From: Propionibacteriaceae bacterium
GTDB lineage: Bacteria > Actinomycetota > Actinomycetes > Propionibacteriales > Propionibacteriaceae
NCBI GenBank assembly: GCA_009780915.1
Contig: WQZD01000011.1
Coordinates: 1-64,000 of the forward strand
DNA: 64,000 nucleotides
Direction of reading: 5' to 3'
Program-made: the position numbers and the translations under genes
The notes under the pieces: model-generated
Seen by the model: the letters and a program-made list of their open reading frames with translations, nothing else
What the model was told of the DNA's origin: nothing
Database searches by the model: none
In this document: positions 58,162 through 61,832 of the stretch, one piece after another
Layout of the letters: the number at the start of each line of letters is the position of its first letter
Numbering within the stretch: position 1 is the first letter of the stretch

Positions 58162-59637
58162 TCACAGTCCCAGGCCGACCGTCACCGGCTGGGCCGACCC
58201 CACGCCGATCACCAGGACCGACCCCGACACGTTGGACTGGTCCACCGCGAAGATGAGCGCTCCTGAGAGCGTGTGCCCGCCGGAGAGGGTGGGCGCCCAC
58301 AGGGGATTGTCCGAACCGTCGGGCAGCGTGTAGAACATCTCCGCGCCGGAGTCGGTCTCATAGGTCGTGCCATCGGGGCCCATCAGCATGATGTCGGCGT
58401 TGGGGTCCGCGAAACCGATCGTCCCCGAGATCAACGTCATCGTCACATCGACGATGACGAAGGTCCGCCCGGGGTCAGGCGTGTAGAAACTGGCGATGCT
58501 CGTCGCCGTCTGCGCCGGACCCGTGACGGTGTACTCCACCGAGTCACCGTTGTCTTGCGTGAGAGTCACGGTCTGTCCGATCCCGGCGGTCGTGCCCCCC
58601 GTCCCGGGGGCAGTGGGGCCTGCGGTGCTCGACTGCGTGGGCGCCGCCGAGGAGGTCGGGCGGGGTGTGTAGATCGGGTTCGGCCCCTTGGACGCGGTCG
58701 TGGCCGCGGGCTGGGGAGTCCCAGAGGTACGGTTGGTCATCCAGACGACCCCCACCACGAGCAGAGCCACAACGATGACGCCGACCACGATGCCGACGAC
58801 CATGCCAGTCTTCTTCTTCTTGGGTGGCCCGCCAGGCGCGGGCTGCCCCCACCCCGGCGGTGGATAGGACTGGGAGTACATAGGCTGGGGCGCGTACCCC
58901 TGTGGGGGGTACGGGGCCGACAGGGGAGGCTGGCCGGGGTACGCCTGCGTGTCGAAGGGCGTAGCGGCGCCGTACCCCCCGCCAGGGGGCGGGTACGGTT
59001 GCCCGGCGCCGGGATAGAGTCCGCCCGTTCCGGGGTACGGCAGGCCGGGCGCCGGAGGGGCCGAGGGGTATGGCTGGGCGGATGTCGGGGGCGCCGGGGG
59101 GTACGGTTGGCCGGATTCCGGGGGCGCCGGGGGGTAGGGTTGACCGGTCGCCGAAGGGTACGGTTGACCGGACCCTGGGGGTGCCAGAGGGCCTGGTTGA
59201 CCAGACTCCGGGGGCGCCGAAGGGCCTGGCGCCTGTTGACCGGGGTACGAGAAGGACCCCGCCCAGCCGGACCCTGGGTACGCCTGGCCTGGCGCGGGAT
59301 AGGCGCCATCCATCCCAGCCGGTGGCACAGGCGTCGGCGGCTCGACAGGTGGCTGTGGCGGCTGCGGCGGCTCGATGGGCGGCTCGACCGGCGGCTGAGG
59401 CGGCTCGACCGGCATCTGTGGCGGTGTCACCGGCGGCTGCATCGGCTCCACAGGGGGCTGAGGCGGCCAAGGTTGCGGTTGCGGCGGCTGCCATGCCGGT
59501 GGCTGCGGCGCTGATTCGACCGGTTCGGTTGGCACCGCGTGGCCCTCGTCGGGCGTCGGGACGTGACCCGCGTCGGGCGCCGATGGTTCGTGCGGCTCTG
59601 GTTGAGTTCCGAAGTTCTGACTCCAAGTGTCGTTCAT
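58162..59637 (-). CDS. Pro-rich single-span membrane protein with DUF4352-like domain
   Basis: 491 residues: a long Pro/Gln/Tyr-rich N-terminus (1-315) with runs of QPYPPAPPESG-type repeats, a basic motif KKKK, one span (about 322-345), a Thr/Ser linker and an extracytoplasmic beta domain of DUF4352-like look. Only the domain layout supports this call. ATG 59637 follows GAGGACG. About 355 nt separate the start from the promoter at 59999-60027, leaving a long structured leader. Confidence 0.7.
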   Translation of the reverse strand: MNDTWSQNFGTQPEPHEPSAPDAGHVPTPDEGHAVPTEPVESAPQPPAWQPPQPQPWPPQPPVEPMQPPVTPPQMPVEPPQPPVEPPIEPPQPPQPPVEPPTPVPPAGMDGAYPAPGQAYPGSGWAGSFSYPGQQAPGPSAPPESGQPGPLAPPGSGQPYPSATGQPYPPAPPESGQPYPPAPPTSAQPYPSAPPAPGLPYPGTGGLYPGAGQPYPPPGGGYGAATPFDTQAYPGQPPLSAPYPPQGYAPQPMYSQSYPPPGWGQPAPGGPPKKKKTGMVVGIVVGVIVVALLVVGVVWMTNRTSGTPQPAATTASKGPNPIYTPRPTSSAAPTQSSTAGPTAPGTGGTTAGIGQTVTLTQDNGDSVEYTVTGPAQTATSIASFYTPDPGRTFVIVDVTMTLISGTIGFADPNADIMLMGPDGTTYETDSGAEMFYTLPDGSDNPLWAPTLSGGHTLSGALIFAVDQSNVSGSVLVIGVGSAQPVTVGLGL

Positions 59638-59827: not shown

Positions 59828-59992
59828 GATCATGAGTACCGGGCCGGCCGGCGGGTTGGGGGGAAAGCCCGTCGGCCGACCCTCATGATCCCTAGGGCAA
59901 TTTTCCTCAGAGGGGGGTAACTGAGTTGCCCTTCGCGTACGATCCATCGGACCGTAGGCCCCTCCAGTGGTGGATCCCGCACCGGAGGCGAT
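59828..59992 (-). ncRNA. Candidate structured leader RNA with four stem-loops
   Basis: Starting a few nt after the predicted transcription start, four stems follow one another: 59961-59988 (9 bp), 59938-59956 (8 bp), 59894-59932 (outer 7 bp, inner 5 bp) and 59828-59890 (8 bp plus 15 bp with one mismatch). In the first two, the one imperfect position is a G-U pair on the minus strand but an A-C clash on the plus strand. It could be a riboswitch-like leader of the 58162-59637 gene or a free small RNA. No known RNA family was recognised. Confidence 0.5.
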
Positions 59993-59998
59993 ATGAAG

Positions 59999-60033
59999 AA
60001 TCTAGCACCCACAATCGATTGAGTCAAACGTTT
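59999..60033 (-). promoter_or_regulatory. Strong leftward promoter overlapped by a LacI-type operator
   Basis: TTGACT (60022-60027), 17-nt spacer, TAGATT (59999-60004) on the minus strand. The palindrome AAACGTTT (60026-60033), with a central CpG as in LacI-family operators, overlaps the -35. It lies about 80 bp upstream of the LacI-type gene, so repression or autoregulation by that protein is likely. Confidence 0.65.
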
Positions 60034-60109: not shown

Positions 60110-61207
60110 GTGCTAGCTCGCGTCAACCATCGTCCCACTCAACGAGAGATCGCCGCCCAGGTCGGCGTGAGCGTGACGACCGTGTCCCGAATCCTCAACC
60201 CATCCGAGCTCCATCCCAACCGCTGGGCCTCGGAACACACGGTGGCCGCCATCCAAGCGGCGGCGGCCTCGATGGGGTACCGCCACAACGCCCTGGCCGT
60301 GTCTCTGCGCACATCACGCACCCAGACCGTCGGCGTCCTCGTCCCCATGGTGGGGGATTACGTCCTCGCGTCCATCTACTCAGGGATCGACGAGGTCGCC
60401 CGCGAGCATGGGATCACCGCATTGACCGCGTCGACCCTGGACGAGCCCGCCGTGCGTGCAGAACGTACCTTCTCGATGCTGGACCACCTGGTGGACGGCA
60501 TGATCTTCGCCGACGCCCACCTCGACGAGCACTTCCTCGACTCCATCGCCGAGCAGGGAGTCGCCTTCACCCTCGTCCATCGCCGGCATGACCGCCACGC
60601 GAGCGTCTCGTCCGACGACCTCACCGCCGGACGGCTGGCCGCGCAGCATTTCATCAGCCTCGGCCGCAAGCGTCTGGCCGTCATCACCGGACGACGCTTC
60701 ATGTCCACCGGCAGCGACCGTACCCAGGGATTCATCGACGCCGCCCTGGAGGCTGGCCTCGAGGAGCCGAGGATCATCGAGGCCGGCTTCGACGTCGACG
60801 CGGGCCGGGAGGCCGGACTGGCCATCCTGACCACCTCCCCACTGCCCGACGCCATCTTCGCCATCCATGATCGCGCCGCGTTGGGCGTCATCAGCATCCT
60901 CGGCCTGCATGGCGTGATCATCCCGGACGACGTGGCGGTCATCGGCTTCTACGACACGCCCGTCTCGTTGGCCACCGACCTGACGTCCATCAGCACCCCC
61001 CTGCACCAGATGGGTCGGCGGTCCCTGGAACTGCTCTTGGACCGCCTCAATGGAGAGCCGATCGAGTCCGAGGTCTTCCCGACGACCTTGACCGTCCGCG
61101 GCTCCACGGATCCGTCCCACTCAGTGGGAATGAATCTCGCCGCCTCCAGCGCGAATCCCCTGTCCGGCCAGTGGGCTCGTTTGAAGCGATCCCCGCGGCC
61201 GGCCTGA
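60110..61207 (+). CDS. LacI-family transcriptional regulator
   Basis: 365 residues. HTH (QREIAAQVGVSVTTVSRILN), the hinge helix NALAVSLRTSRT, then a periplasmic-binding-type sensor domain with SDDLTAGRLAAQHFISLGRKRLAVITG and DLTSISTPLHQMGRRSLELLLDRL. GTG 60110 has AGGGGG upstream and begins at the expected N-terminus. Ligand unknown. No sugar-uptake genes adjoin it, so it may act on the leftward structured transcript or remote genes. Confidence 0.9.
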   Translation: MLARVNHRPTQREIAAQVGVSVTTVSRILNPSELHPNRWASEHTVAAIQAAAASMGYRHNALAVSLRTSRTQTVGVLVPMVGDYVLASIYSGIDEVAREHGITALTASTLDEPAVRAERTFSMLDHLVDGMIFADAHLDEHFLDSIAEQGVAFTLVHRRHDRHASVSSDDLTAGRLAAQHFISLGRKRLAVITGRRFMSTGSDRTQGFIDAALEAGLEEPRIIEAGFDVDAGREAGLAILTTSPLPDAIFAIHDRAALGVISILGLHGVIIPDDVAVIGFYDTPVSLATDLTSISTPLHQMGRRSLELLLDRLNGEPIESEVFPTTLTVRGSTDPSHSVGMNLAASSANPLSGQWARLKRSPRPA

Positions 61208-61499: not shown

Positions 61500-61832
61500 T
61501 CACAGATAGAGCCCGGCATGCCCCTCGTCGAGACGGGTCGTGGCGACGGCATGGAGGTCGCGTTCGCGCAACAGGATGTACACCTCGGCGTGCAACTCGA
61601 CTTCCGCCACCTCGTCAGGATCGAAGAGGACCCGGTCCCCATTCTTCACCGAGCGGACATTCGGCCCGATGGCGACGACGGTCGCCCATGCCAAACGGCG
61701 ACCCATTTTCACGGTCGCCGGGATGAGGATCCCGCCCCCAGACTTGCGTTCCCCCTCGATCTCGGACGAGACCAGGATACGGTCATGCAGCATGTGGATC
61801 GGCAGGGGCTCCTCAGTCGTCCTCTTCGCCAT
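61500..61832 (-). CDS. GroES-family co-chaperonin-like protein
   Basis: 110 residues. LHDRILVSSEIEGERKSGGGILIPATV is the GroES core with the mobile-loop position, followed by ATVVAIGPNVRSVKNGDRVLFDPDEVAEVE. No groEL lies nearby. It is encoded 9 nt after the DUF3618 gene and in the same operon. It may be an alternative co-chaperonin or a GroES-like protein of different role. Confidence 0.8.
   Translation of the reverse strand: MAKRTTEEPLPIHMLHDRILVSSEIEGERKSGGGILIPATVKMGRRLAWATVVAIGPNVRSVKNGDRVLFDPDEVAEVELHAEVYILLRERDLHAVATTRLDEGHAGLYL

Follow-up and report, generated by a model that had tools for sequence, protein, structure and literature searches.

A conserved four-hairpin RNA element beside a lacI-family gene in Propionibacteriaceae: a candidate LacI-controlled small RNA

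Introduction

What is encoded in the gap between a lacI-family gene and the gene of a proline-rich membrane protein in a Propionibacteriaceae bacterium? The window analysed here (the whole stretch of 64,000 nucleotides, positions 1 to 64,000 of contig WQZD01000011.1) contains in this gap a leftward promoter followed by a row of stem-loops. An earlier note on this DNA had proposed an undescribed structured RNA under a LacI-type operator, and offered two readings: a cis-regulatory leader of the proline-rich protein, possibly ligand-binding, or a small RNA controlled by LacI. We compared the locus with genomes of related bacteria, which are referred to below by G-numbers. The features of the locus are given in Table 1.

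Structure of the element in the window

The minimum-free-energy fold predicted for the minus strand consists of four consecutive stem-loops, P1 to P4, in agreement with the earlier note, which had counted four over about 165 nt. A 361-nt stretch of the minus strand folds with z = -3.4 and none of 100 shuffled sequences was as stable. The 152-nt core alone has a z of -2.7, with two of 200 shuffles reaching the same stability. G-U pairs were also said to favour the minus strand, and this held: such pairs are present in each of P1, P2 and P4, and the minus strand folds better against shuffles. P4 is prolonged by an outer stem in the predicted fold, and this extension is probably the 3′ end region of the RNA. 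Analogous outer stems of other sequence occur in G010 and G014, and none was seen in the G016 and G018 sequences. The scan for intrinsic terminators gave none with a T-run in the window, so the 3′ end of the RNA is ill-defined and transcription may read through towards the proline-rich gene. In G010, a T-rich tail lies downstream of P4.

Table 1. Features of the locus, in positions of the window
Feature	Position	Strand or placement	Basis
Proline-rich membrane protein gene (downstream neighbour), weak DUF4352-like end	58162..59637	minus	
P4 outer extension, GAUCAUGA (59890-59883) with UCAUGAUC (59835-59828)	59828..59890	minus	predicted fold
Structured RNA element (P1 to P4), forming the core of the putative small RNA	59839..59990	minus	covariance model R1, covariation
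Hairpin P4, loop CUUUCCCCCCAA with C6 at 59858-59863 on a long GC stem	59841..59882	minus	stem kept with changes
Hairpin P3, loop UUACCCCCCU, C6 at 59912-59917	59894..59932	minus	predicted fold, alignment
Hairpin P2, UACGGUCC/GGAUCGUA	59938..59956	minus	five two-sided changes, plain MAFFT alignment
Hairpin P1, base CTCC/GGAG invariant, covariation in the inner pairs	59962..59987	minus	alignments
Promoter TTGACT-17-TAGATT	59999..60027	minus	near-consensus, sequence scan
LacI-type dyad 2, CAATCGATTG	60012..60021	in -35/-10 spacer	sequence; conserved
LacI-type dyad 1, AAACGTTT	60026..60033	overlaps -35	sequence; conserved
lacI-family regulator gene, divergent from the RNA	60110..61207	plus	Pfam LacI, Peripla_BP_3

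Conservation and covariation in the genus

A DNA search of 58 relatives brought up three more places with the element, all in the same genus, and tracking the lacI orthologue extended the set to seven genomes in total. The seven lacI neighbourhoods are syntenic, with an acyl-CoA ligase gene, the proline-rich membrane protein gene (not in G010), a gap and lacI. The gap holds the same RNA element in five of the seven (the genome of the window, G016, G018, G010 and G014). The covariance model R1 scored 163 bits in the window and 81-162 bits in the four other species, always as a single copy per genome. No other credible match was obtained from the 199 family genomes searched with R1; matches in other genera (G191, G133, G207, G090 and others) stayed at or below 29 bits, had poor stems or covered P4 only, and were judged to be chance. 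A search of a plasmid collection for the element gave no match.

The relatives also show that the helices covary, as the earlier note had asked to be checked. In a plain MAFFT alignment, made independently of the structure, two-sided changes occur in 11 of 43 pairs, against 4.8 +/- 1.6 in shuffles (none of 500 reached this number), and only 1-4 two-sided pairs are left when the partners are slid; the model structure was taken from the window sequence and the alignment has five homologues only, two of them near-identical. A hand-made structural alignment, which is fitted to the structure, gives two-sided changes for 20 of 41 pairs, and 97.5% of its cells are paired. The minus strand folds with z between -2.7 and -3.3 in the five species and the opposite strand with -0.4 to -2.1, although the minimum-energy fold predicted for G016 and G018 differs in the 5′ half. 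In the P4 loop, a run of 5-8 C is found in all five homologues while the stem sequence changes, and the stretches GGAGGG.CCUACG and ACGCGAAGG outside the C loop are near-invariant. The C run of the P3 loop is variable, with six C in the window and G014, four in G016 and G018 and none in G010.

Could such a pattern arise from a DNA-level feature, such as nested palindromes or the end of a mobile element, or from chance folding without any RNA function? P4 is indeed near-palindromic as DNA, and the covariance model weakly matches it on the opposite strand. However, the element is present once per genome, several separate hairpins covary, the G-U pairs favour one strand and the promoter stands at a fixed distance, and we consider this explanation very improbable. 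Even less can be said for a small protein gene. The window has a 60-codon frame behind GGAGGGG at 59947, a sequence resembling a ribosome-binding site with an ATG 12 nt on, but G016, G018 and G010 have no usable start at the corresponding place, and in the homologues stop codons interrupt the frame and indels of lengths not divisible by three disrupt it. This frame is not conserved and what the sequence changes preserve are base pairs instead, so a coding function is hardly credible. Judged from these comparisons, the element is a conserved structured RNA gene for which no Rfam family reaches its cut-off (see below).

Promoter and operators

The near-consensus leftward promoter of the earlier note (TTGACT, 17 nt, TAGATT) was recovered on the minus strand from 60027 to 59999. 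It is among the two promoter-like sites found in a 3 kb scan, for which shuffles give 0.2. The predicted start of the RNA is at about 59992, some 5 nt ahead of P1. The AAACGTTT dyad described as overlapping the -35 was found at 60026-60033, and a second dyad, CAATCGATTG, had been missed. Both have a central CG and are placed over the promoter of the RNA element. The adjoining LacI gene was correctly recognised: its product has the Pfam domains LacI and Peripla_BP_3, and falls under every NCBIfam equivalog cut-off, with RbsR as the top match. Beside lacI, at 61503-61832 of the window, a diverged GroES/Cpn10-like protein is encoded, which is below all NCBIfam cut-offs; genes similar to it are found at the same place in G002 and G014.

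All five RNA-bearing species keep the -35 and the -10, and the distance from the -10 to P1, read from the sequences, is 11 nt in each of them. The double-operator pattern SGWTTGNSNNAAWCGWTTG has exactly seven matches in 19 genomes of the genus, one per genome. All of them are situated at the RNA/lacI locus, and the genomes concerned are precisely the seven that have the lacI orthologue; the exact double site was not found elsewhere in the 19 genomes. This LacI may have further targets with a single site. The central-CG dyads over the promoter are thus conserved together with the regulator, and the protein encoded by lacI is the probable repressor of the RNA promoter. In the two genomes without the RNA (G002 and G006) the dyads are retained, and the -10 is absent at the position where the others have one. 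Because these genomes keep the dyads yet lack both -10 and RNA, the comparison indicates that promoter and RNA are gained or lost together, and that the operator travels with lacI. As covariation, conserved promoter and operators and the absence of any Rfam family over its cut-off all apply, the general claim that an undescribed structured RNA lies under a LacI-type operator stands.

Relation to the downstream gene

The distance from the predicted RNA start (about 59992) to the ATG of the proline-rich gene at 59637 is 355 nt, as the earlier note had estimated. The two are on the same strand, this stretch is untranslated with no strong terminator between them, and the proline-rich gene follows the RNA in four of the five species, all of which would suit a cis-acting 5′ leader (an attenuator or a riboswitch). 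However, G010 has the RNA, and the proline-rich gene was not found in its available genome sequence; in the contiguous sequence, a convergent acyl-CoA ligase gene (fadD) ends about 15 nt past the RNA. G002 and G006 represent the reverse case, with the gene and without the RNA. Downstream of the RNA, the spacer before the gene measures about 35 nt in G014, 200 in the window genome, 380 in G016 and 530 in G018, and its sequence is unconserved. The element therefore does not always precede the same gene, and these three observations contradict a leader, ligand-binding or not, which we consider improbable. We judge that the proline-rich membrane protein gene is not part of the function of the RNA. 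The element instead shows what is expected of a small RNA gene, i.e. its own promoter, a conserved non-coding structure and independence from the neighbour. Of the two readings of the earlier note, the LacI-controlled small RNA is thus the better supported.

Two neighbouring regions deserve mention. The acyl-CoA ligase gene adjoining the RNA in G010 (L038, 1450-3141) is split into two frames, so that it is either disrupted or wrongly assembled. The intergenic region between lacI and the proline-rich gene in G006 (L039, 3640-4960) measures about 1 kb and is enlarged by a long direct repeat in at least two copies.

Comparison with known RNA families

At the gathering threshold, the Rfam matches in the window were limited to rRNA and tRNAs, with no family on the element, so the reading as undescribed stands. 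With relaxed thresholds, the elements of the window and G014 likewise gave no family at its cut-off. The closest relations are to two actinobacterial families, which have the GC stem with a C loop in common with the element; 6C is the nearer of them in style. The 6C RNA (RF01066) reached 21.2 bits on the window element, short of the cut-off of 47, and had no match listed up to E = 10 on the G014 element. This cut-off is strict, as no relative or control genome passes it, C. glutamicum included; because even this control falls below it, the element may be a distant relation of 6C. Like 6C/B11, the element is actinobacterial and has hairpins with C-run loops; the 6C trait of two stem-loops with about six C each is present in the window and G014 but not in G016, G018 and G010, and the 3′ hairpin of 6C (long GC stem, UCCCCCC loop) aligns to P4. 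On the other hand, the element has four hairpins over about 165 nt and 6C has two over about 75-100 nt, and the C run of P3 is not conserved. The control differs as well, being of LacI type at this locus and linked to GlxR for 6C in C. glutamicum (PMC4046766).

The best, yet weak, Rfam match was Scr3202 (RF02833), a small RNA of Streptomyces, with 23.5 bits on the window and 20.9 bits on the G014 element against a cut-off of 52. Scr3202 is built of two hairpins, the 3′ one with a C-rich loop, and it matches only the 3′ half of the element. Small RNAs of the RsaI and RoxS/RsaE type in Firmicutes use C-rich single strands to pair with ribosome-binding sites and are themselves controlled by sugar or redox regulators, RsaI being repressed by CcpA, a LacI-family protein. 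The parallel concerns the proposed mode of action and control. The regulator of our element is encoded next door and appears to be local.

Possible mode of action

The element is very probably a small RNA under LacI control. The best explanation, which we hold with fair confidence, is a stand-alone RNA that acts in trans by pairing through its C loop. It would be an independent unit of about 155-175 nt. A LacI-family regulator on both dyads, at the -35 and in the -35/-10 spacer, would block transcription (we infer repression and not activation), and a ligand would free the regulator, so that the RNA is made from a start about 5 nt before P1. The single-stranded C run of the P4 loop, in some species also that of P3, would then pair with G-rich ribosome-binding sites and block translation. 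In mycobacteria, the B11/6C RNAs have been shown to act in this way, their C-run loops binding to ribosome-binding sites and G tracts in the mRNAs that they target (PMC10470900). By analogy, base-pairing of the P4 loop with mRNAs that have G-rich ribosome-binding sites is likely.

Regarding targets, the situation was less clear. When GGGGGG-AA or GGGGG-AA before ATG was searched in RNA-bearing genomes, no target common to the window genome, G010 and G018 was recovered, and many of the G-rich matches in the scan were inside coding frames. Asparaginase was considered as a target and rejected: most RNA-bearing genomes are without a clear orthologue, and the gene in G018 is not preceded by a G run. 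G018 also has two nearby rubrerythrin-like paralogues (L252 and L253, named by eye), which both have GGGGGAAACAGTCTxGCGATG around their start. This sequence is complementary to the P4 loop and the pair are possible targets in the G018 lineage, which we regard as only a lead.

The lack of a conserved mRNA target in the scan would also fit a structured RNA that binds a protein, as a titrating agent or scaffold, and does not pair via the C loop. Its four compact hairpins and the near-invariant stretches outside the C loop are in line with this. However, the C run of P4 is the most constant feature among the loops and fits antisense pairing with G-rich sites, and protein binding is in our opinion unlikely, though the least so of the alternatives to the trans-acting small RNA.

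Origin of the LacI switch

The nearest relatives of lacI in other genera share 52% identity in G146 and 36-45% in others. They have a pair of CAAnCGnTTG dyads between lacI and the divergent gene, and in G146 and G044 the neighbouring dyads are 13 bp apart, the same as in the window. Since the relatives have the same arrangement, the dyads of the window are the putative operators of its LacI. The divergent gene encodes an asparaginase in G146 (PF00710) and, by sequence, in G044, a DUF1989 protein in G022 (PF09347) and, by sequence, in G229, and an amidase in G251 (PF01425). In the other genera lacI is thus divergent from a protein-coding gene and at the window locus from an RNA, which suggests that an RNA has taken the place of an enzyme gene as the target.

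Transporters and a polysaccharide-deacetylase-like gene were also seen near the lacI relatives (L172 in G146, L173 in G022, L174 in G229, L175 in G251 and L176 in G044). Together with the asparaginase, DUF1989 and amidase genes, this neighbourhood suggests that the relatives regulate the use of amide or ureide nitrogen. We tentatively propose, at somewhat less than an even chance, that the lineage kept the pair of LacI operators and that a new four-hairpin C-loop small RNA replaced a protein-coding target of amide nitrogen metabolism (asparaginase, amidase or DUF1989); the root of the lacI tree is poorly resolved, which applies to the direction of this change and to gain or loss of the RNA relative to G002 and G006.

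Significance

Apart from those of mycobacteria, corynebacteria and streptomycetes, few actinobacterial small RNAs have to our knowledge been characterised, and local pairs of one regulator and one RNA seem to be rare. If our reading is true, the locus would represent a compact and testable switch made of a LacI protein, two operators and one RNA. The RNA would be a second actinobacterial family of C-loop RNAs, comparable with 6C, and its locus a case in which a regulator has exchanged an enzyme gene for an RNA as its target.
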